Below are positions 1 to 34,208 of a stretch of 34,208 nucleotides of DNA, piece by piece. A program made the position numbers and the translations under genes. Within the stretch, counting starts at the first letter, position 1. Every line of letters starts with the position of its first letter. Location of the stretch: NCBI GenBank assembly GCA_927443345.1, contig CAKMKJ010000074.1, positions 1 through 34,208 of the forward strand. Direction: 5' to 3'. The DNA comes from an uncultured Anaerolineaceae bacterium. Its GTDB lineage: Bacteria; Chloroflexota; Anaerolineae; Anaerolineales; Anaerolineaceae. The notes below the pieces were generated by a model that was not told the origin of the DNA, did not search any database, and was given only the letters and a program-made list of their open reading frames with translations.

Positions 1-66
1 TTATTGACGCACTTACTCGAGCAAGCTGGTATTAATTTAGAAGAAACTTTTCCTTGGATATTACAA
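1..66 (+). pseudogene. Scrambled fragment of the 447-1424 gene
   Basis: Two pieces of the gene at 447-1424 are joined here in the opposite orientation to that gene. Bases 1-30 are identical to the reverse complement of 599-628, which encodes the IDALTRAS part. Bases 23 to about 65 match the reverse complement of the stretch near 735-777, which encodes AGINLEETFPWIL. The two pieces share the 8-base word AAGCTGGT at 23-30, so the join is at a microhomology. Their order is reversed relative to the intact gene and they lie in different reading frames. It encodes nothing functional. The fragment may continue beyond the left end of the window. Confidence 0.8.
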
Positions 67-166
67 CGCCCAAATTAGCATTTTGATGAGGGGCTAATAT
101 GATTAAGGTCACAACGGCAGTTTGTTAATTTCTGAACTAAATTGATTGAATTCTTTTACGTGGTTA

Positions 167-188
167 TTTTTTTTTTTTTTTTTTTTTT
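167..188. repeat. Homopolymeric T tract (T22)
   Basis: There are 22 consecutive T residues in non-coding AT-rich sequence. Such a run is prone to slippage and to sequencing or assembly error, so its exact length should not be trusted. The rest of 67-446 shows no gene I can support; it contains only this tract and the diverged repeat at about 222-292. Confidence 0.9.
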
Positions 189-221
189 GTGAGATACCAA
201 TGGTTGTGATAATCGGCGTTA

Positions 222-292
222 CTGAAACCTTTTTTTTATAGGCTGTTCACATGCGAGAGATAGTACAAGTCTTGCAGGTATACACTTTTATT
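222..292 (+). repeat. Diverged direct repeat, copy A
   Basis: This AT-rich segment shares an ordered set of short matches with 1568-1640. They are a T-rich run, then GGCTGTT, GCGAGA, ATAG, CTTG, AGGTA and CACTTTT. By eye about 70% of positions match when small gaps are allowed. The two copies are in the same orientation and bracket the gene at 447-1424, as would be expected for a duplicated junction or cassette boundary. No integron attC core could be recognised. Confidence 0.5.
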
Positions 293-446
293 GTGGAGGT
301 GTTTATTTTATTTGTATTCTACTCATTGGAATCAGATTTTCTATCAAGAAAGATTTTACACATGTTCCATTATTGAAATAATCCAGAAAGAAATGACAAA
401 AACCATACTTGTCCCTGGGGCATTTATGGTGGTATTGCGTGATGTT

Positions 447-1424
447 TTATGTAATAACTGATTCATTATCTTCGTACTTCCAAAACCCCATTTTTTCTAA
501 AAGCAACCTTCTTGCCAACCTCTGGACATTATTGACTTCATAATAGTTAAGTGAGCTTGCTAGTTCTCTTAACTTATGTGCTGATACTTTGCTTCTCAAC
601 CAGCTTGCTCGAGTAAGTGCGTCAATAACTTCTATCTCTCCGTCTCGAATTTTTCCAAATGCCCAATTTGCTTTAGATTTAATTCTGGGTTTCCTAACGC
701 GTTCTAATTTTGTCGGTGTATCCCGTAATATCCAAGGAAAAGTTTCTTCTAAATTAATACCAGCTTTTACTAATCTTCCCTCGAGTTCGTTCTTTACGAT
801 TGGATTCCATTTTCCATCAATGTAGCTTGGAGACTTTTCCGATGCGCGAGGTTCAAGAGAGAGTTCTTCGATAACAGAATAAGCTATCACAATAGCATAT
901 GCACATTTGACTCGGTAATCAATTGATAAAGACACATACTTTCCTGGTGTCCACTCTGATGGGTCAAAAACAATAGAATCACTTGAAATAAGTTCAAGGC
1001 TTGTTAAGTGCTTAAACAGGGCGTATTGATATTCTTTTCTATATGATGCCTTGGCAGCAATCATACAAATTACAGGAACGCCATTACAACTTTCGCCTAT
1101 AAGTGATTTTTGTTGGAAAGTATCAGATGTGTTAATCTGAAGCGTTACAGGCATTTGATGAAACAGCGATAATTCGCCCATGTAAAGGCACTTGGCAGCA
1201 AATAACAATTCAGTAACATACTTGGCTCGTTCTAGAGAATTGGCATTAATTATCACATTCTTTGTTGGATATTGAGTGCCGTTTATGATGGCTAATGAAC
1301 CATTTTTATTCAAATTATCCATTTTTTCAAAAATAATATTCCATCCCTTCCCATAAAATGGGGGCGGGCCATAAAAAATATAATCAAAAACTGAAAAACC
1401 CGAAAAATATTTTTGAAGGGCCAT
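447..1424 (-). CDS. Hypothetical protein of the accessory island
   Basis: This 325-residue protein is not one I recognise. It has no signal peptide, no clear membrane helix and no nucleotide-binding motif. The N-terminal half is mixed alpha/beta in character. The C-terminus (about residues 260-325) is basic and helical, with Arg-rich segments such as QRLARRLLLEK, and could bind nucleic acid; that is inference only. The ATG at 1424 has just a weak AGGT-like upstream sequence, so the start is uncertain. The gene is AT-rich like the rest of the island and lies between two diverged direct repeats. A scrambled fragment of it sits at 1-66, so this locus has rearranged before. Its strand matches the small genes up to 2891. 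Confidence 0.6.
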   Translation of the reverse strand: MALQKYFSGFSVFDYIFYGPPPFYGKGWNIIFEKMDNLNKNGSLAIINGTQYPTKNVIINANSLERAKYVTELLFAAKCLYMGELSLFHQMPVTLQINTSDTFQQKSLIGESCNGVPVICMIAAKASYRKEYQYALFKHLTSLELISSDSIVFDPSEWTPGKYVSLSIDYRVKCAYAIVIAYSVIEELSLEPRASEKSPSYIDGKWNPIVKNELEGRLVKAGINLEETFPWILRDTPTKLERVRKPRIKSKANWAFGKIRDGEIEVIDALTRASWLRSKVSAHKLRELASSLNYYEVNNVQRLARRLLLEKMGFWKYEDNESVIT

Positions 1425-1751
1425 TTATAACCTACAGAAAGCATCCAACTAATAGATAATAAGCATAACAAGATAATTTGAATGACAAACAATATTTATT
1501 TAGATAGAGGCTCTGGTTTCTGTAAATTTCTAAAAAAAGACTTTACGACTCATAGAAAATTAGTTTTTGAACCTTGTTTTTTTTACTGGCTGTTACCCTA
1601 GCGAGATAGCATTCATGCCTTGTAGGTACTCACTTTTTTATATGTGAGTAATTGTTACTAATGTAAAAATCAATTCGTAATTTCCACTAATAAAACAAAA
1701 TAATTGAAGACAATAAAAATGCTGAAATGGTTTGAAAAGTACATCGATAAT
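1425..1751. other. Intergenic stretch with direct repeat copy B
   Basis: No gene is visible in these 327 AT-rich bases. Positions 1568-1640 carry copy B of the diverged direct repeat also found at 222-292, in the same orientation. The rest presumably holds the promoter of the 447-1424 gene and the 3' end of the next transcript, but I saw no convincing promoter or terminator. Confidence 0.5.
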
Positions 1752-1958
1752 TTAGGTGCTTTTTTCTGATGATTTATTTAAAACACTTTCTATTGAATAG
1801 CCAACCTTAACTTCGAATTTCATTCCCTCAAGACCATCATAAGTAATATTGTTTATATAACAGTCATATTTTTGATTAGTTAGTTTTGAGAAGGAATCAG
1901 CAATAACCTCTTCAATTGTTTCAATACTTATTGATTTTATTTCAGTAAATTCTGACAT
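1752..1958 (-). CDS. Small hypothetical protein (68 aa)
   Basis: This short acidic soluble protein begins MSEFTEIKSISIETIEE. I chose the ATG at 1958 because an AGGAG Shine-Dalgarno sequence stands at good spacing before it (reverse strand AAAAGGAGTTGAAAAA). A longer frame runs upstream to 2021 but has no ribosome binding site. Predicted structure is an N-terminal helix followed by beta strands (YDCYINNITYDGLEGMKFEV). No family was recognised. It lies about 65 bases downstream of the membrane-anchored small protein at 2024-2527 on the same strand, so the two may be cotranscribed. Small size and AT-rich composition leave function open. Confidence 0.55.
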   Translation of the reverse strand: MSEFTEIKSISIETIEEVIADSFSKLTNQKYDCYINNITYDGLEGMKFEVKVGYSIESVLNKSSEKST

Positions 1959-2023
1959 TTTTTCAACTCCTTTTGTAAAATACTTCATATTATTACTGTT
2001 ATTGAAACCTACTTTTCTCATAA

Positions 2024-2527
2024 TTAATGTAATTTTATGCTAGCAAACATCAACGAATCATAACACTTCGTTACTTTTAAAGACAATTGGTTGAGTTCGT
2101 CACTTATTGTCTTGAATTTCCCAAAATCGACATCATCGTCATAATCTGGGTTTGGGATTCTATGCATTCCATGCCCATAATTATTGCTTTTTTTAGCTAA
2201 GGTATCGTTAAATACGTCTGCAGATTTTAGTAATTCAATTCTCTTTTTTTCTAAACCCTTATTGATAAACATAAAATCCGGGTTTTCATGACAGTAATAG
2301 GAAAACCTGTCCAAGTTTCTGATGACTTCTATGTCAAACGGCTCTCCAAAATGATGGTCTTTTAAATAAACATAAAGTCCGTTATCAATAAACAACGGTT
2401 TTAACCTAGTCAAAGTCTCTTTATCTCTAAGATTATTTTTATCTACTATGTTGATATATCGATTAAGTAATGTTCCCCCAAAAGCACCCAAAAAAGCTGC
2501 AATTAGCGAAATGAACCAATCAGGCAT
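2024..2527 (-). CDS. Small membrane-anchored hypothetical protein
   Basis: This protein of 167 residues has one N-terminal membrane helix (about residues 4-22, ISLIAAFLGAFGG), followed by a basic/polar stretch and a soluble domain of about 140 residues on the cytoplasmic side. The soluble part contains a His/Asn/Asp-rich segment (GHGMHRIPNPDYDDD near residue 118-132) but no catalytic signature I can name. A strong ribosome binding site, AGGGAGGAAC, precedes the ATG at 2527. The gene precedes the 68-aa gene on the same strand. No family was recognised. The layout of one helix plus a small cytosolic domain is common among accessory-island proteins, but that does not define a role. Confidence 0.6.
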   Translation of the reverse strand: MPDWFISLIAAFLGAFGGTLLNRYINIVDKNNLRDKETLTRLKPLFIDNGLYVYLKDHHFGEPFDIEVIRNLDRFSYYCHENPDFMFINKGLEKKRIELLKSADVFNDTLAKKSNNYGHGMHRIPNPDYDDDVDFGKFKTISDELNQLSLKVTKCYDSLMFASIKLH

Positions 2528-2618
2528 ATTTTGTTCCTCCCTTTGTTAGTTAATTATTTCCAATGATAATTATAAGTGCGGTTATCAAAAACTAATTGGA
2601 TAAGAAATTACAAAAAAT

Positions 2619-2891
2619 TCATCCAAAGTAATCAAAAGGTGCAGGGTGGCAATCAATCCGAAGAAATTCTTCATTTTCGATTTCATATATTTTTATTTTC
2701 AATTTTCTATAACAACCATCCTCGATGAAGAAAATATCTCCTGCCTTCGACATATCAATCACCTGTTTTCTAGAAAAATCCTGCGGAGGGAAGAAATTAT
2801 TATGGTTCCCGTCTGTTAAATAGCCAGTCATCTTTGTAATTTTCTTCTTTGATACTTCAAAGTGAATCCCATTAATATAATAATATGCCAT
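2619..2891 (-). CDS. DUF3892-like small protein
   Basis: This is a 90-residue soluble protein. Its layout resembles the DUF3892 family: an N-terminal beta strand (YYINGIHFEV), a middle section around VIDMSKAGDIFFI with a helix and a GD-turn, then KIKIYEIENEEFLRID and a C-terminal P.DYFG. The family is small, of unknown function, and often found in mobile or accessory contexts. An AAGGA sequence lies about 8 bases before the ATG. The neighbour upstream is the interrupted integrase, which is divergently oriented, so the space at 2892-3023 should hold both promoters. The family assignment comes from recalled pattern, not from a search. Confidence 0.55.
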   Translation of the reverse strand: MAYYYINGIHFEVSKKKITKMTGYLTDGNHNNFFPPQDFSRKQVIDMSKAGDIFFIEDGCYRKLKIKIYEIENEEFLRIDCHPAPFDYFG

Positions 2892-3023
2892 AGAAAATTT
2901 CCTTCGTACCGTCTTAGCACATAAGTTCTATTTTTTGATTAACAAGAACATTTTCTGCCGATACAAAAGGCATAAGTGTGTATATTATTGAATTACAAAA
3001 ATGATAGCGAAAAGGAGAAGGAA

Positions 3024-3956
3024 ATGGTTACCCCGTCTGCAACAAACAAAATTATGGATGCTTTCAATAACGACAATCTTCAATCTTGGATTGATGCATT
3101 TATGATGGACAGACGCGCTCAAAATATGGCGAAAGGAACTTTGCATTTTTATAAAGCAAAATTAAAAGACTTTTCAGCATATTGCGAATCAGTTAGCATT
3201 GACAGAGTCATGGAGATTGAGCCATCTCATATTCGTGCATTCTTATTGTTACTTCAGGAAAAAGGGCATAATCCCGGCGGAGTTCATACCTATTAAAGAG
3301 TAATTAAAGCATTTCTTCGCTGGTTTGAATTTGAATTTGAACCAGAAAATTGGAGAAACCCTATCAGGCAAATTAAGGCTCCAAAAAATCCCGTAATATT
3401 ATTAGACCCAGTGAATATCGATGTAGCCCAAGCAATGATAGATATATGTCCAAAAAATGATTTCTTTGGATTACGCGATAAAGCTATTTTTCTTTGTCTG
3501 CTAGACACTGGATTACGAGCCAGTGAACTGTTAGCTATGAATATCGAGGAGGTGAATTTTATAACCGGAGAAATTCATATATTGAAGGGTAAGGGTAGAA
3601 AAAGCCGTTATGTTTTTCTAGGGTCAAAATCACGGAAAGCACTTCGTTCATATCTAAAGTACAGACTCGATGACACAGAAGCTCTTTGGTTAACCAGAGG
3701 TCGAACAAGAATGGAATACTGGGGGTTGGAAGGAATGATTCATAGACGAGCAAAAGAAGCAAATGTCACTGCACCTTCTATGCATTCATTTAGGAGATGG
3801 TTTGCACTTACATGTCTTCGCGCAGGAATGGATGCTTTTTCATTACAAGAACTAATGGGACATTCTGATTTGCAAGTTCTTAAGAGATATATTAAACAAA
3901 CTTCTTTTGATTTGCAAAGCGCACATCAAAGAGCTAGTCCAGTTGATAATCTTTGA
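3024..3956 (+). pseudogene. Tyrosine recombinase/integrase with in-frame TAA
   Basis: One continuous frame of 311 codons encodes a XerC/D-like tyrosine recombinase, broken only by a TAA at 3294-3296. The N-terminal SAM-like core-binding domain occupies residues 10-90. The catalytic domain follows, with Arg in TGLRASELL, Lys in KGKGRKSR, HSFRR (HxxR), GHSDL and the nucleophile Tyr in RYIKQ. All catalytic residues are present, so the stop is the only visible lesion. The local sequence HTY-stop-RVIKAFLRW suggests a former Tyr or similar codon. The ATG at 3024 has an AGGAG site; a GTG lies further upstream at 2976. The unfinished protein would be only 90 residues and inactive, unless the stop is read through or the downstream part restarts. 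It probably mobilised the island originally. Confidence 0.85.
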
Positions 3957-4032
3957 AAGGACTAGCAAATTCAAAAAATTATTTTTTAATTCACTTCTTC
4001 ATATTTTGATGAATAATTCTGATGTTTTATAT

Positions 4033-4833
4033 TTATCGAAAGCAAGAAATTATAAACACAACAATACCAATAATTGCTGAAATTGCCGCAATGGTACTAA
4101 ATATCCAATTTTCTTTAAGGAATTCACCAATTGCAACAGGGTAAGCCCCATACAAATCTTTCCACGTTGAATTGGTTTTGAGTGTTTGATTGTCAATTCG
4201 CTCGATAATTCCTGCAAGAATATCCACCTTTCGTAGTGTTGACTGGTGAAGTTTTACATATTCTTTATTTTCAAATGAAATAGCTTCTTCAGCTCCACTC
4301 AAGAAATCCTTGGCACTGATATTGTTTTTCTCGACCAATTTTTCTAAGCGGGGATGCCCAATGTACCCCACTCCATAAATTGAAATAACTAATCGGGCAA
4401 GGTCAAATAAATTCGATTCATGGATTTCAACAGGTTGACCATTTAATACTCTATATCGATGAGCAATTGCTTGAAATCCATAATTAATATCTCTCATATT
4501 CCAATGTAGCCATTTATGTGTCAGATGACCAGCTACATATTCAAAAAAACCATCAAGCATTAATTTTTCGAGATTATCGTAATTTGCTTCAATTTCGGGA
4601 TTTGCAACCTTCTGTCTTTCTGCCATTTGATGGATAGAAAAAGAGGTTGTTTGTCCACTAGCTAAATTACGTACTGCGATTGAAGTTATGCGTGGGGAAG
4701 AACCGTCAACTCTGTTGTAAAAACTTTCACACGAATAATGGATTACCACTACCATTTCGGGATTTGACATTAAATCGGAAATTGAGTTTAGTGCTTTTTT
4801 ACGATGTTGTATTCTGCGAATGGCATTACCCAT
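4033..4833 (-). CDS. Tail-anchored protein with weak DnaQ-exonuclease likeness
   Basis: This 266-residue protein has a globular N-terminal region and one C-terminal membrane helix (about residues 242-264, ending in Arg), so it should be tail-anchored with the domain in the cytoplasm. The order of segments vaguely follows the RNase H-fold DEDD exonucleases: a strand with MVVVIHYSCESF where D-x-E is expected, then HWNMRDINYGF, then HQSTLRKVDILAGIIERI resembling the third motif. The first acidic residue is replaced by His/Ser, so catalysis is doubtful. GGAGGGG precedes the ATG at 4833. It is divergent from the membrane HerA-like ATPase at 5126, and the shared intergenic region suggests co-regulation. 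The fold assignment is a guess; existence of the gene is well supported. Confidence 0.65.
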   Translation of the reverse strand: MGNAIRRIQHRKKALNSISDLMSNPEMVVVIHYSCESFYNRVDGSSPRITSIAVRNLASGQTTSFSIHQMAERQKVANPEIEANYDNLEKLMLDGFFEYVAGHLTHKWLHWNMRDINYGFQAIAHRYRVLNGQPVEIHESNLFDLARLVISIYGVGYIGHPRLEKLVEKNNISAKDFLSGAEEAISFENKEYVKLHQSTLRKVDILAGIIERIDNQTLKTNSTWKDLYGAYPVAIGEFLKENWIFSTIAAISAIIGIVVFIISCFR

Positions 4834-5070
4834 TTATTCCCCTCCATTTGGTTTGAAAATAATAACCGTATTTATTTTACTCATATTTTTATAATTATGC
4901 TGATTGTGGTCATTTCTCGCTATAAACGGAAAAATCATACTATCAATCATATTACTGCACGAAATGCGAATAACAATAAAGCAATTAAGTTACAATAAAG
5001 AAGCGGGGTAACAACTACTTATTCAATTTTAGTGTTTTAGGAAAATTTGCTCCAATAATTCTTATAAGTT

Positions 5071-5099
5071 TTGAGTTCATCCAACTTGTCTTTTATATT
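5071..5099 (+). promoter_or_regulatory. Candidate promoter of the HerA-like gene
   Basis: TTGAGT (5071-5076) and TATATT (5094-5099) are separated by 17 bases, upstream of the ATG at 5126. The AGAGGG ribosome binding site lies in the short predicted leader. The remainder of 4834-5125 is AT-rich, with nothing else I can support. It must also hold the promoter of the divergent 4033-4833 gene. Confidence 0.4.
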
Positions 5100-5125
5100 G
5101 ATAAGATGAAATATTAGAGGGAAAA

Positions 5126-7084
5126 ATGAAACTACGTTATAGATTAGCTTTCTTAGTAATTTTTCTTATTTTATTAATCATTGTTGGGTACTTTGATACT
5201 CAAAATTTACAATTTATAACTAATGATTTTTGGTTCGCATCAGGCTTTCTTCTTCTAATTCTTATGAGTTTGATTGACCAACCTTTTTTCTCAACAGATG
5301 CAAATGTTTTTATGAATGGAACAGCAGGATTATCGCTCATATTAATTGAACGCTCCTCAAGAGATTTTTGGTGGTTTGGTTTTTTATTTTGGTGTCTTTG
5401 GTTATTAATAACAAGTTTTATTTTGATGTGGTTCAAAGCAAATAAACCAGATTCAATTAAAACCTTTAGAGGATTTATTGAAAAAATCAATCGAGAAATA
5501 GGAAAACCTGAAGCCCTGTTTTCATCATTTTTCTTGTGGGGAGCAATTCGACAATTTGGTTTGGGTTCTAAGCAAATTGAACCATTATTTGCTTTCTGGG
5601 CAGTTTTCATAATACTAAATATGCCTTCAATTGCAAGGGCAATAGACAAGTTTTTTGATAGAATACTAAATCCTGTAAACCAAAAACTGGATATTGGCTC
5701 TCTTTTCCGTGTTTCAGACCCCAGAGTCTTGGAGATTAAACTGAACAAAGAATGTCCAAACAAAATTGTTGGTCAATATTTTATTTTTCAAACAGGCAAA
5801 GAAGAATTAATTGGTGAGGGGATAGTAATCGACGATAGAATAATTGCAGGAAACAGGATTGCAAAAATTGCGTCAACAATAATTACAGATAGATGGAACT
5901 ATATTGCTCTAAATCCAGAAAAGATTTCTTTTTCTATTAAGAAAGATGTGGAAAATGTTAGCGACGTTGATATTCCTATTAGCGTTGTTGACATAGGTTC
6001 AACGATGTCCTCCATAAGTTTTGTTGTTCACCCTGATTTTCCATTACATAAGGGGGAAATTGTTTGGACATTAAATTCAGATAATGTGAGAGTTTATTTT
6101 CAAATTACCGTGGCAACAATAGTAGACCAGAATAGTATTGAAGGAAGTAATGTTAAATGTGTTTTAGTAACAGCTAACCAAATCGGAATTTGGCAAGAAA
6201 AAGAAATGAAATTTAAACAATATGCTTGGGTTCCCCCTGCTGGTTTTGTTATATATTTAGTGCGAACTGATTTGAACGCTGATAAAGAAATACCCGATGG
6301 AAAAACGCAGGTTGGCAACATCCCAAACTCTGGGTTTCCAATTCTAGCCGACGTTGGTGAATTAGTAACTCATAATACAGCAATTATTGGTGTTACCGGG
6401 AGTGGAAAATCTTATTTGGCATTTCACCTTATTGAATCCTATTTAGAAAAAAGAATAAAAGTTTTTATATTAGATGTGACAAGAGAATATTACTTATATC
6501 TTCACAAATACAATCCTACTCCATTAATATCAGTAAACGATGTTAAAACATGGTACGAAGGTGAATCACCATTAGGAATATATCAGTTCGCGACAAGTAC
6601 AAATTATCCAGACACAACAAGTCAATTTGTTGATGAAATATTTAAGATATTAAAAAAAGCGGTTTTAAAACCCGGAGTGACTATACCTGCAAGATTATGC
6701 GTTGTATTTGAAGAAGCCCATGCTCTAATTCCTGAATTTACTCAAGTGGCAAACAAAGGAGATTCAGATTTTGTAAATGCTACATCACGAACAATCCTTC
6801 AGGGCAGAAAATATGGTATGGGTAGTTTGATTGTTACTCAACGAACAGCAAATGTTACAAAAACAATTTTGAATCAATGCAATACAATTATCGCACTAAG
6901 GTCATTTGATAAGACCGGGCTTGATTTTTTAAGCAATTATATGGGAACTGAATATGCACACGCAATTTCAACTTTACCAACTTATGATGCAATAATAGTG
7001 GGTAAAGCATCGTCTTGCCAAACTCCAGTTATTTTTTCGATTCCTGATTTTTCAAACCGATGGAATAACGAGGAAGAAACGTAA
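5126..7084 (+). CDS. Membrane-anchored HerA-like ATPase
   Basis: This 652-residue protein belongs to the HerA/FtsK superfamily of DNA-translocating ATPases. Residues 1 to about 180 carry four or five hydrophobic helices, starting at 8-24. Residues 190-410 look like a beta-rich HAS-barrel and linker region. The RecA-like motor follows, with Walker A GVTGSGKS at 422-429, Walker B ending VVFEEAH at 526-532, and a downstream segment (SRTILQGRKYGMGSLIVTQ) typical of HerA sensor and arginine-finger regions. Classical HerA is soluble and pairs with the nuclease NurA; in defence systems HerA-type ATPases pair with SIR2 or other effectors. The N-terminal membrane domain is unusual and no NurA or SIR2 gene is adjacent. 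Its candidate partner is the divergent tail-anchored protein. An AGAGGG site precedes the ATG. Confidence 0.85.
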   Translation: MKLRYRLAFLVIFLILLIIVGYFDTQNLQFITNDFWFASGFLLLILMSLIDQPFFSTDANVFMNGTAGLSLILIERSSRDFWWFGFLFWCLWLLITSFILMWFKANKPDSIKTFRGFIEKINREIGKPEALFSSFFLWGAIRQFGLGSKQIEPLFAFWAVFIILNMPSIARAIDKFFDRILNPVNQKLDIGSLFRVSDPRVLEIKLNKECPNKIVGQYFIFQTGKEELIGEGIVIDDRIIAGNRIAKIASTIITDRWNYIALNPEKISFSIKKDVENVSDVDIPISVVDIGSTMSSISFVVHPDFPLHKGEIVWTLNSDNVRVYFQITVATIVDQNSIEGSNVKCVLVTANQIGIWQEKEMKFKQYAWVPPAGFVIYLVRTDLNADKEIPDGKTQVGNIPNSGFPILADVGELVTHNTAIIGVTGSGKSYLAFHLIESYLEKRIKVFILDVTREYYLYLHKYNPTPLISVNDVKTWYEGESPLGIYQFATSTNYPDTTSQFVDEIFKILKKAVLKPGVTIPARLCVVFEEAHALIPEFTQVANKGDSDFVNATSRTILQGRKYGMGSLIVTQRTANVTKTILNQCNTIIALRSFDKTGLDFLSNYMGTEYAHAISTLPTYDAIIVGKASSCQTPVIFSIPDFSNRWNNEEET

Positions 7085-7136
7085 CATATCAAAAATAATT
7101 ATTGATGTTAATTTCCAAATTTCTGCAGGAAAATAA

Positions 7137-7979
7137 TTAGCCGGGTTTGAAATTAATCCAATTTATGTCGGGAAAATTCAAAAACCGCTTTTCCATTGTC
7201 TCCATGGCTTCTACGTTATTATCAATTAATATGAAGTTCCTTTCTAAATGTAGGCAACTTTCACCAACAGTCCCGCTTCCTGCAAAGAAGTCCATAACAA
7301 CTTCTCCGGGATTTGAAGATGCTCTTATTATCCGATTAATAATCCCTAAAGGTTTTTGAGTTGGATAGCCATTTCGCTCTTTTGAATTTGTACCAACAAT
7401 TGTCCACCACCAAGTATCGGTGGGCAATTTTCCCCGTGCTGCTTTTTCCGGGCCACACAATCCGGGAGCCATATATGGTTCTCTGTCAATATCCTCAACA
7501 TTAAAAGTGTAATTCTTGGGGTCTTTCACATAATAAAGAATGTTGTCGTGTTTTGCAGGCCATTTACTTTTAGATTTAGCCCCATAATCATATGCCCAAA
7601 TAATCTCATTCAAAAAGGATTCACGTCCAAATATTTGGTCAAGCCAAATTTTGCAATAATGTACTTCCCGATAATCAATATGAAAATATAAGCTGCCATT
7701 AGGGGCAAGAATTCGGTATGCTTCTTCTAATCGCGGTCGAATGAAACCCTCGTAATCATCAAACGAATCACTATATTTTTTTGTACCTAATTCTTCTGTT
7801 TTATAGGACGTTCCCATAAACCCAATTCGGTCGCCATTTGGGTCTTTAGTCGTTTTTAATTGAGTTCTTGACTGTACTTTTTGTGAATTAAATGGCGGGT
7901 CTATGTATATTAAATTCACCGAACCATTTGGAATATCTTTTAGAATGAGTAAATTATCACCGAAGTAAATTTGATTCAT
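7137..7979 (-). CDS. Site-specific DNA methyltransferase, beta class (N4/N6)
   Basis: This 280-residue amino-methyltransferase would transfer a methyl group from SAM to adenine N6 or cytosine N4. The catalytic motif IV DPPF is at residues 27-30 and the SAM-binding FAGSGT at 232-237. This order (catalytic motif before SAM motif) defines the beta class. The segment between them should contain the target recognition region. I chose the ATG at 7979 because GGAAG lies just upstream; an alternative start at 7994 adds five residues. It is convergent with the HerA-like gene and no restriction endonuclease gene is recognisable nearby, so it looks solitary. Two decayed fragments of a related methyltransferase lie beyond its 5' side at 8412-8880. 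Composition is AT-rich like the island. Confidence 0.88.
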   Translation of the reverse strand: MNQIYFGDNLLILKDIPNGSVNLIYIDPPFNSQKVQSRTQLKTTKDPNGDRIGFMGTSYKTEELGTKKYSDSFDDYEGFIRPRLEEAYRILAPNGSLYFHIDYREVHYCKIWLDQIFGRESFLNEIIWAYDYGAKSKSKWPAKHDNILYYVKDPKNYTFNVEDIDREPYMAPGLCGPEKAARGKLPTDTWWWTIVGTNSKERNGYPTQKPLGIINRIIRASSNPGEVVMDFFAGSGTVGESCLHLERNFILIDNNVEAMETMEKRFLNFPDINWINFKPG

Positions 7980-8411
7980 GTATCTTCCAATCAACGTTTT
8001 TTGTTGGGTTTCAACAACAAGTTACTGTTCAAAGTCTATCATATTTGCAATCGCCTGATAATATCGGACATACTAAATTTGCATAAAACGTAAACAACCA
8101 TTGCTTTTAAACACTCGCTAAAATGCAAAATAAACTACATAAAAAAAGTGCTGAAATACCAAGAAAAATCGACATAAAACATGCACTTTTTTTGAAGTTT
8201 GCGTTGATAGTATTATCAAAATTGAATTTGTAGAATTAAAAGTATTAAGTACCTTATCATATGTGCTATTGGTTTATATTTAGACAATCTTATCTTGTTT
8301 TCTGCTCATATGCTACATAACCTGATGATTACCTTGTCACCTGTTATGAATAAAATGAATTATCTTCTTTCAAGTACAATAATTATCAACTCCAACATTC
8401 TTACCATACCA
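7980..8411. other. Non-coding AT-rich stretch with long inverted repeat
   Basis: No gene is supported here. AAAAAAAGTGC at 8141-8151 pairs perfectly with GCACTTTTTTT at 8183-8193, giving an 11-bp stem with a 31-base loop. It could be a weak bidirectional terminator or part of a small RNA. AT-rich composition ends near 8,400, where GC-richer methyltransferase remnants begin. Confidence 0.5.
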
Positions 8412-8669
8412 ACGAACGGCAAAGAGAAAACCGGCTATCCCACCCAGAAACCGCTGGGCATCATCCGCCGCATTGTGGCTGCTTCATCCAACCCGGGCGA
8501 CTTGGTGCTTGATTTCTTCGCAGGCAGCGGCACCACCGGTATGGTCTGCCACGAACTTGGCCGCGACTTCATCCTGGTCGACAGCAACCCGCAGGCGATT
8601 GAGACTATGAAACTCCGCTTTGATGGCCTGTATGGGATTGAGTGGGTTATTCCCGAGATTGATCAATAA
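8412..8669 (+). pseudogene. C-terminal remnant of a DNA methyltransferase
   Basis: An open frame ending at 8669 encodes the last 85 residues of a beta-class methyltransferase, including TGYPTQKPLGIIRRI and the SAM-binding motif DFFAGSGT. The catalytic DPPF region and target-recognition region are absent. The frame upstream of 8412 is AT-rich sequence unrelated to methyltransferases, without a ribosome binding site. The remnant is GC-richer than the intact methyltransferase at 7137-7979 and resembles the downstream chromosome, so it is probably a resident gene truncated at the island edge. It cannot be active alone. Confidence 0.8.
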
Positions 8670-8706
8670 AACATTCTTGTAAAAAGTAAAAGAAAAGACC
8701 TCAGCC

Positions 8707-8880
8707 TCATCCAACCCGGGCGACTTGGTGCTTGACTTCCGCGATCTTTGCGCGAGCAGCGGCACCATACGGAATGATCTGCCGCGAACTTGGCCGTGAC
8801 TGCATCCTGGTCGACAGCAACCCGCAGGCTATTGAGACTAAGAAATTCTGCTATAAGGGTGTGAATGACATTGAATGGAG
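8707..8880 (+). pseudogene. Second, decayed copy of the methyltransferase tail
   Basis: This is a partial tandem duplicate of 8484-8641 in the same orientation. A 29-base identical run starts at 8484 and at 8707, and another 27-base identical run covers the codons for ILVDSNPQ. Between them an insertion of about a dozen bases and small indels break the frame around the FAGSGT motif. The copy is too short and damaged to encode a protein. Confidence 0.8.
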
Positions 8881-8914
8881 AGTCTACTCAATGCGAGAAG
8901 CGGCAAACAAACTT

Positions 8915-9376
8915 TTACCTGAGACCTTTATCGATAAAGAACTCTTTATACGCCATGTCTTCTTGAAGGATATGATGAGTCCACCAATCGGTAAGAAAAC
9001 CATACAAAACTCCCGCCTGTTGCTCAGTATTCTTCCCCAATTCTTCATACAAGTCCATCGTTTTCACCTGAAAATCAAGATGTCTTTTTTTATGTTCTCT
9101 AATTTGAGGGAAATCATAAGTTTCCATCAGTTTCTCTTCGGTTTTAAAATGCACTTGCGCGTAAGTGGTCATTTCTTCCAAAATACTTTTGATTATTTCT
9201 GAGTGGATACTGTTCGTCTCAGAAACCTGGATCAACCGGTTAAGGAGGTTGATCAATTTTAGGTGCTGGATATCCAGCTCCTTAATCCCGACACTGAACC
9301 GACCAGACCATTGCAATGGCTCCCTTTTTATTACACTTTTTTGAAAATCCATAATTAATTTAGACTCCAGATCCAT
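8915..9376 (-). CDS. Bacteriohemerythrin
   Basis: This small protein has a four-helix bundle carrying a di-iron oxygen-binding site. The ligand pattern is readable: H38, H76, E80 (HFKTE), H95 and H99 (HKKRH), H135 and D140 (HILQED). Members bind or sense oxygen and are found in microaerophilic and anaerobic bacteria; some take part in signalling. I chose the ATG at 9376 because AGGAC lies just upstream, and the resulting 153 residues match the usual size. A longer frame to 9508 has no ribosome binding site. No membrane segment or extra domain is present. It stands alone, convergent with the methyltransferase remnants and divergent from metK. Confidence 0.9.
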   Translation of the reverse strand: MDLESKLIMDFQKSVIKREPLQWSGRFSVGIKELDIQHLKLINLLNRLIQVSETNSIHSEIIKSILEEMTTYAQVHFKTEEKLMETYDFPQIREHKKRHLDFQVKTMDLYEELGKNTEQQAGVLYGFLTDWWTHHILQEDMAYKEFFIDKGLR

Positions 9377-9750
9377 CTTAATGTCCTGCGGGAAAATTGA
9401 GTATCCATAGTAGTTTTTATTATCGAGCCTCACCAATACTGGTAAGCTTATGCAGTGAAGACTGTGAATGTTGACAAGCATCCTTCTATTACAAGCGTAG
9501 ATTATCAAAAGAGAAAAGCTCTGGTAATAAAGTTCGACTAAAAATGGGATAAATAATGTTAAGGATTAGCAATTACTCATAAATGGCAAAACCCCTTTAC
9601 TGGTTTTTTCAAGTCATTTGTTAATTATGTATCAATCTTGGCGCGGTTTACAAGTTCACCTGCTCGCGAATAGTAGAGGGGGCGGCAAGAAAAATAATAA
9701 GTTAGTAGTTCACTATGACGAATCACCGTATAAAATGTGACCTTGGTAAT
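9377..9750. other. Intergenic region upstream of metK
   Basis: No gene is supported. It should contain the promoter of the hemerythrin gene on the minus strand. A weak AAAACC/GGTTTT stem with a T run lies at 9588-9609 and might terminate transcription, but it is short and AU-rich. Confidence 0.4.
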
Positions 9751-9779
9751 TTGACACGCCCATTCAAACATGATAAACT
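9751..9779 (+). promoter_or_regulatory. Promoter of the SAM riboswitch-metK transcript
   Basis: A perfect -35 TTGACA at 9751-9756 and a -10 TAAACT at 9774-9779 are separated by 17 bases. Transcription would start about 9786, some 25 bases before the aptamer. Position and match to the sigma-70 consensus are both good. Confidence 0.7.
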
Positions 9780-9810
9780 GACGCTACAATTACATAGCCC
9801 CAAAACGGCA

Positions 9811-9917
9811 CTTCTATCCAGAGAGGCGGAGGGATCGGCCCGACGAAGCCTCGACAACCAGAATCACGAAAGTGGTTTATGGTGCTAATTCCGACAGAAT
9901 AAACTGGAAGATAGGAG
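9811..9917 (+). promoter_or_regulatory. SAM-I (S-box) riboswitch aptamer
   Basis: This is the conserved S-box element in the leader of metK. Visible signatures are CCAGAGAGGCGGAGGGA, GGCCCGACGAAGCC with CGACAACC, and the closing P1 stem formed by CTTCTATC (9811-9818) and GATAGGAG (9910-9917). It binds S-adenosylmethionine, the product of the downstream enzyme, giving feedback repression. The expression platform follows immediately. Confidence 0.93.
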
Positions 9918-9975
9918 GGCAGCCGCAAGAACGTTGCCCCTCGTGTTTTCTCCGATAGGGGCAATCTATTTTAAA
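9914..9975 (+). terminator. Riboswitch expression platform (alternative hairpins)
   Basis: Two mutually exclusive stems can form. In one, GAGGGCAGC just after the aptamer pairs with GTTGCCCCTC (9933-9942). In the other, GTTGCCCCT (9933-9941) pairs with AGGGGCAAT (9957-9965), followed by a weak T-rich run. The first stem begins inside P1, so SAM binding would prevent it and favour the downstream terminator hairpin. The T tract is poor. Effects on translation are possible, since the ribosome binding site starts only about eight bases later. Confidence 0.7.
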
Positions 9976-9988
9976 GGAGATTAACTCA

Positions 9989-11203
9989 ATGGCTTCAAGC
10001 ACTTTCATGGATTCACCCAGCTACAAATTCACCTCCGAGTCTGTGACCGAAGGTCACCCCGACAAACTGTGTGACCAGGTCTCAGACGCCGTATTGGATG
10101 CCTGCCTCGCGCAGGATCCACGCAGTCGTGTGGCTTGCGAAACTGCCACCAAAACCGGCTTTGTCATGGTGCTTGGTGAAATTACCACCACCGCTTTCGT
10201 CAACTTTGACGAACTGGTGCGCAAGGTGGTCAAAGGCATCGGCTACGATAATAGCGAAAAAGGCTTCGACGGCAACACCTGCGCCGTAATGAGCGCCATC
10301 GCCAGCCAATCGCCCGATATTGCCATGGGCGTGGATAAATCTTACGAGGTCAAAGGTGGTGAAGTAACCGAACAGGAACTCAACGAAATCGGCGCCGGCG
10401 ACCAGGGGATGATGTTTGGCTACGCCTGCAACGAAACCCCCACCCTGATGCCCATGCCCATTTACCTGGCACACAAGCTCTGCCGCCGTCTCTCTGAAGT
10501 GCGCAAAGATGGCACGCTGCCCTGGCTGCGCCCTGACGGCAAATCTCAGGTGACGGTTGAATACGCCTACGGCAAACCCGTGCGTGTGGATACGGTGCTC
10601 ATCTCTACCCAGCATGCCCCAGAAGTTGCTCAAGAAGAGATCACCAAGCGCATCATTGAACACGTGATCAATCCCGTCATCCCCGCGGAACTGCTCGACA
10701 AGCAGCCCAAAATCTATGTCAACCCCACTGGCCGCTTTGTCATCGGCGGACCGATGGGCGATGCCGGCGTTACTGGCCGCAAGATCATCGTCGACACCTA
10801 CGGCGGTATGGGCCGTCATGGCGGCGGCGCTTTCTCTGGCAAAGACCCCACGAAAGTGGATCGCTCTGCCGCGTATGCCTGCCGCTGGGTCGCCAAGAAC
10901 GTGGTGGCTGCCGGCCTGGCCGACCGCTGCGAAATTCAAGTGGCTTACGCCATCGGTGTGGCTCACCCCCTAAGCATCAACGTTGAGACCTTCGGCACCG
11001 GCAAGATCGGTGATGCAGAGATTGCCGACTTAATCGCCAAGACCTTCGACCTGCGTCCCGGCGCCATCATCCGCGACCTTGACCTGCGCAAACCCATCTA
11101 TCAGCAGACCGCTGCTTATGGCCACTTTGGCCGCGACGATGTTGACTTCACCTGGGAACGCACTGATAAGGCCGAAGCTTTGAAGAAAGCTGCCGGGTTG
11201 TAA
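9989..11203 (+). CDS. metK: S-adenosylmethionine synthetase (methionine adenosyltransferase)
   Basis: This enzyme makes SAM from methionine and ATP in the cytosol, releasing phosphate and diphosphate. The length of 404 residues is typical. Family motifs are in place: GHPDK at 22-26, the ATP-binding GAGDQG at 125-130, and the P-loop-like GGGAFSGKD at 268-276. An AGGAG site lies nine bases before the ATG at 9989. The gene is the sole member of its transcript, preceded by a SAM-I riboswitch and closed by a strong terminator at 11234. It has the GC-richer codon use of the main chromosome, unlike the island. Its antisense strand also has long open frames, which are only codon-composition shadows. 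Confidence 0.97.
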
Positions 11204-33699: not shown

Positions 33700-34208
33700 A
33701 TAATTGCTCCTGAATAAATTTGTTAAGGTACCGAATAAAATATGAGAATGATTGCACTTTTATGATAGCATGCCGGGGTGAGTTCGTCAAACCCTAAAGT
33801 ATACAAAGCTTGTCGAATTTACAAAAGATTAATAAAACGCATTGATTGACAAGTAAGTTGCATCAAGGCCATCTTCCCAAATGCCAAGTGCAAAAGAATT
33901 CGGGAAGTAATATAACTTCATTTAGCGGGCGATGGGTTATTATCCCCGACAGGGGACACCTGTACCCCGCAGGGGTGTGAGTAGGAGCGAAGCGGAAATA
34001 CCAATAGGCAAACCCAGATAAGAACCAAAAACCTTAATGCAAAACCTTGAGAAGGTTTAAAGTAACCTTGTCAAGGTTGGGAAACAAAAATGTTATTTAA
34101 ACTTGAAAAGTGGACAATATAAAGCTCAAAAGTGGACTGACTGTTTTCTTAAGATTGGGGGGTTTAAATCTGAAAAGTGGACAGCTATGATGAAATAAAA
34201 AGAGAGGG
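33700..34208. other. Non-coding region with hairpins
   Basis: No gene is supported. GGGG/CCCC hairpins occur twice as CCCCGACAGGGG (33944-33955) and CCCCGCAGGGG (33965-33975). AACCTTGAGAAGGTT and AACCTTGTCAAGGTT are two short palindromes around 34042-34078. The promoter of the yacL-like operon should lie near 33710-33770. Confidence 0.5.
34106..34182 (+). repeat. Three copies of AAAAGTGGAC, possible insertion sequence end
   Basis: The 10-base word AAAAGTGGAC occurs at 34106-34115, 34128-34137 and 34173-34182, all in the same direction. Repeated motifs at the ends are a trait of IS21-type insertion sequences, but no transposase is inside the window, so this is a tentative call. Confidence 0.4.

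Follow-up and report, generated by a model that had tools for sequence, protein, structure and literature searches.

Scrambled gene pieces at a contig tip, probably joined by template switching in vitro

In overlap length and orientation, the joins reported here are similar to the chimeras that form when DNA is amplified. In one published set, 406 of 475 amplification chimeras were inverted and 69 direct, with 11 of the 475 being direct joins under 10 kb, and overlaps reached 21 bases; the same account argues against simple hairpin priming as the chief route (PMC1855051). A further account gives overlaps that peak at 7 bases, with over 95% at 3-13, and distances that lie mainly within 5 kb, with 80-280 bases being preferred (PMC5372508). 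Wrongly oriented read pairs have also been described as more frequent in amplified Illumina libraries (PMC4060946). For rearrangements in living cells, verified junctions in Salmonella led to deduced cut-offs that differ by type: duplications have one of 11 bases, inversions one of 12, and deletions one of 8 (PMC3411829).

The window, the whole stretch of DNA analysed here, is the entire contig C74 (34,208 bases) of a 3.67 Mb genome in 94 contigs. Its base 1 is the first base of that contig, so that no assembled sequence lies upstream. The following features of the window are needed below:

1-30, plus strand: piece A, identical to the reverse complement of 599-628 (30/30); truncated where the contig begins, so its extent is a minimum
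23-64, plus strand: piece B, exact reverse complement of 725-766 (42/42)
58-159, plus strand: piece C, also found at 88590-88691 of contig C11 (101/102 identical)
167-188, plus strand: run of 22 T adjoining the scrambled pieces, an outlier in length
447-1424, minus strand: uninterrupted open frame of 325 codons that contains the source sites of pieces A and B
599-628, plus strand: source site of piece A (30/30)
725-766, plus strand: source site of piece B (42/42)
1927-1980, minus strand: source-like site of piece D, which is the last 54 bases of C11, inverted (51/54, 3 mismatches)

Scrambled pieces on two facing contig tips

Each pair of neighbouring pieces meets in a short shared word. Pieces A and B overlap by 8 bases at window 23-30 (AAGCTGGT), B and C by 7 bases at 58-64 (ATATTAC), and C and D, on C11, by 6 bases (TTTTAC). 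The tip has the two gene pieces in the opposite order to the gene strand, where 766-725 comes before 628-599, and each of them is inverted with respect to the gene. A preliminary description of this DNA had claimed two exact, inverted gene pieces in swapped order around an 8-base word, and this is precisely what we found; it had placed the fragment at 1-66, of which the two-piece match stands and the gene match stops at base 64. It had missed that the window is a whole contig, that piece C is common to the end of C11, and that part of C74 is present on the C11 tip. The copy of piece C on C11 ends 48 bases before the contig end. Each of the two facing tips contains sequence of the other contig, with C11 sequence on the C74 tip and C74 sequence on the C11 tip. 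The A-B join is direct and spans 160 bases, the B-C join is inverted and spans about 660 bases, and the C-D join is inverted and, provided that C11 lies next to C74, spans about 1.8 kb; that the two contigs are adjacent in the genome is something the sequences suggest, short of proof.

Among 400,000 random joins drawn within window 1-2400, overlaps of at least 8, 7, and 6 bases arose by chance in 0.037%, 0.11%, and 0.32%, respectively, and each piece departs from its source immediately beyond the shared word. Overlaps beyond chance together with this immediate departure indicate that the joins were guided by microhomology. Two features expected of an amplification or library chimera are present, namely short shared words beyond chance (8, 7, and 6 bases) and joins that are mostly inverted and local, under 10 kb.

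The run of 22 T beside the pieces also counts for an artefact, as it is far outside the range of the genome: in the 2,322,785 bases scanned, homopolymers of 9 occur 27 times and those of 10 four times, no run has a length of 11-21, and a single one reaches 22. It is possibly a further artefact of the tip. Since the T run could itself be artificial, we regard it as no more than likely that piece C runs on unbroken into the rest of C74.

The source gene and its A+T-rich surroundings

Searches of PADLOC, PHROGs, and Pfam (E up to 0.1) gave no family for the frame at 447-1424, and a protein search of 201 genomes matched its own genome alone, the other 200 being without a relative. At the DNA level, window 1-1800 matched 4 of 61 genomes including its own, the remaining three over 30-44 bases only. 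A paralogue or second copy of the gene as the source of the pieces was ruled out, as DNA and protein searches of the own genome gave no other copy. A diverged short repeat flanks the gene (window 230-290 and 1588-1640); two further genomes from this genus have it too, at L030 156-187 and 1501-1543 and at L031 1501-1544, so that it is present twice within 1.4 kb in L030. In these two genomes it adjoins TTCGAACC or TCGAACC, which we read as resembling a tRNA T arm. When the flanking repeats were aligned, as possible sites at which a cassette might recombine, nothing clearly structured was seen.

Both contig ends are rich in A+T: the G+C content is 0.30-0.42 over the initial ten kb of C74 and 0.31-0.40 over the final nineteen kb of C11. 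These stretches are possibly one island split at the contig break, and the shared composition fits this, though it does not prove it. Together, window 1-10000 and the final 19 kb of C11 encode a HerA-like ATPase and a DNA methylase, with a type I modification gene on C11. The ATPase protein on C11 has matches in 31 of 151 genomes including its own, at 23-28% identity outside its own copy. A tyrosine integrase is apparently split into two frames, 2976-3296 with an N-terminal SAM-like domain and 3411-3956 with the catalytic domain, and the list of open reading frames has two short frames (8295-8669 and 8732-9202) that correspond again to the C-terminal portion of a DNA methylase similar to the one at 7137-7994. 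A SAM riboswitch (window 9811-9917, 75.2 bits) lies upstream of frame 9989-11203, which we take to be an S-adenosylmethionine synthetase. Near the end of C11 (L005 5060-5220) there is an imperfect tandem repeat with two units, each about 60 bases long, which end in GGGCAACAGAAAAA and GGACAACAGAAAAA, and at the right end of C74 (window 34090-34208) 119 bases are common to C62 and C76, a repeat where contigs break.

Other contig ends of the assembly

Of the 188 contig ends, 172 were examined (eight of those left out belong to four contigs that read N), and second matches of the ends were sought in 2.32 Mb of the genome. Counted from the first base, the longest second match was exactly 141 bases at 115 of the 172 ends and of another length at 28, and none of at least 18 bases was found at 29. 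Matches of one fixed length are what a k-mer assembler should leave if it breaks off contigs where its graph branches; to go by default settings, we guess that it was MEGAHIT. Local copies were counted when they had at least 20 bases, lay within 5 kb of the tip, and started in its first six bases. Inverted copies of this kind were found at seven of 172 tips versus one of 5000 interior cuts, that one being a self-overlapping palindrome, and direct copies at two tips (C82 and C85, right ends) versus one of 5000 interior cuts. The inverted copies at C47, C54, C66, and C94 either run on with mismatches or are found again elsewhere, and these tips are probably natural repeats; C17 and the left end of C11 are ambiguous, which leaves C74 as the sole clean case among the seven. 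Because four of the seven look like natural repeats, the excess of inverted copies at tips lends the artefact reading weak support. The more general idea that many tips are local fold-backs is weakened by the same counts, with four of the seven being probable natural repeats and two ambiguous.

We also looked for DNA of other origin on some tips. The right ends of C10, C61, C64, and C76 were chosen by eye from the dead ends for their G+C content, and the left end of C48 was also tested. G+C-rich, proteobacterial-like DNA was found on the right tips of C10 (L112 19751-20000), C61 (L073 13302-13551), and C76 (L087 16648-16898). The C10 tip matches radA in 3 records, from plasmids of Xanthomonas (74.7%) and Acinetobacter (87.2%). 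The C61 tip matched 24 plasmid records, 13 from Azospirillum and one from Hymenobacter, with 3 of the 24 in the 90-95% band; in the best 8 of the 24 records the match length is up to 78 bases, and the three annotated matches among these 8 are all RND genes (two of the MexW/MexI family and one RND permease). The C61 query also matches C4, over its inner 66 bases. For the C76 tip there was a match of about 94 bases, at 81.1%, to a single Pseudomonas mandelii plasmid. Elsewhere in their own genome, the foreign-like parts of these three tips had no match besides an inverted self-match of the C76 tip. A degenerate search pattern for the source of the C64 tip gave 0 matches, and this tip was not counted as foreign; the left tip of C48 gave repeats only. 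Thus, to judge from sequence similarity, loose ends seem to carry joined-on DNA of other origin at three of the five tips examined in this way.

Where a contig end is loose, its terminal 100 to 200 bases can therefore contain scrambled local DNA, and in the present assembly such ends probably contain foreign DNA too. Such tips are best excluded before repeats, pseudogenes, or rearrangements are inferred.

Probable template switching in vitro, its rivals, and known systems

We consider it very probable that the A-B-C tip is a template-switch chimera that formed in vitro and was retained as a contig tip, and that it is no genomic feature. Its chimeric part would be bases 1-57 and possibly more of 1-188. 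The preliminary description had offered an artefact of the window edge as its fallback, and this now appears to be the better reading, given the position at a contig end and a C11 tip scrambled from the same neighbourhood. The switching would have taken place during DNA amplification or library making, with copying in the following inferred direction and order. A leftward-reading 3' end that had passed through piece C and ended in GTAATAT would have annealed to the complement of this word in the gene at 725 and copied 725-766. The strand would then have detached at ACCAGCTT (766), moved back 160 bases to pair with the identical word at 599, and from there copied at least 599-628. Unable to bridge to C11, the assembler would have retained a read of this kind, which became the loose end of C74. 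The C11 tip, with pieces C and D, would have formed likewise; a strand with its end GTAAAA at 1980, priming on the TTTTAC of piece C, would suffice.

The 100% identity of pieces A and B with their source sites is consistent with very recent copying, and the mismatches in piece D (3/54) and piece C (1/102) are consistent with a thinly covered tip, although the single-base difference between the two contigs in piece C could equally come from strain variants. Among the points against a chimera made in vitro are the direct A-B join, the minority type among published amplification chimeras, and the distances of about 660 and 1800 bases, which exceed the preferred 80-280. A search for the tip junction gave 0 matches in genome_contigs and viral_contigs, from which the own or near records are possibly absent, and the 60 relatives compared are without this stretch and therefore uninformative on the junction.

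A real rearrangement, carried by the cell or by part of the population, would have arisen by microhomology-guided template switching in replication or repair, with strain variants breaking the assembly. Microhomology joins do arise in cells, as described for Salmonella, and that account treats longer microhomology as evidence against ligation chimeras (PMC3411829); variation is also plausible in an A+T-rich region with a split integrase and modification genes. However, the pieces stop at the contig end and both facing tips are scrambled, differently from each other, and the joins have 8 bases at the order swap and 7 and 6 at the inversions, compared with the deduced 11, 12, and 8 of the Salmonella account (PMC3411829). 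A genomic rearrangement should have genome on both sides of its junction, and here the junction lies at a contig end. We therefore regard this explanation as unlikely. The preliminary description had taken the join for the footprint of a rearrangement by microhomology or of a template switch; the mode of joining is well supported by overlaps beyond chance, whereas a rearrangement of the genome is not, with the pieces at a contig tip, the C11 tip likewise scrambled, and three other ends foreign-looking. A more specific proposal, that the C11/C74 boundary is a spot of in vivo template switching within an island of modification genes, where A-B-C and C-D are population forms beside a long T tract, seems to us quite unlikely.

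Joining by the assembler itself, with reads chained via short shared words and no single molecule holding A-B-C, might be thought of because the 141-base words shared at 115 of the 172 ends point to an assembly from overlapping k-mers. Overlaps of 6-8 bases are far under a word of 141, so the joins must already have been within the reads, and this explanation is highly improbable. Decay of an old duplicate of the gene, with the tip as its scrambled remnant, would agree with the pieces being gene fragments; all 72 of 72 aligned bases are identical, unlike old decay, and the genome is without another copy, which makes this idea barely credible.

The chimera formed in vitro, which we prefer, can be compared with three described systems. 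It is like the chimeras of multiple displacement amplification, as far as these are described in PMC1855051 and PMC5372508, in its inverted nearby joins, its overlaps of 6-8 bases, and its short distances, and amplification of this type may have been involved. It is unlike them in that one of the three joins is direct and the distances are above the preferred 80-280. The microhomology-induced chimeric reads of end repair, described for formalin-fixed samples (PMC8674242), offer a similar process, with single strands priming on nearby inverted microhomology; they fit less well, as the reach of piece D, about 1.8 kb, is long for a library fragment. Finally, the spontaneous rearrangements of Salmonella (PMC3411829) likewise have short repeats at their joins, but the verified inversions and duplications in that account have longer microhomology and lie inside chromosomes, whereas the joins described here lie at contig tips.
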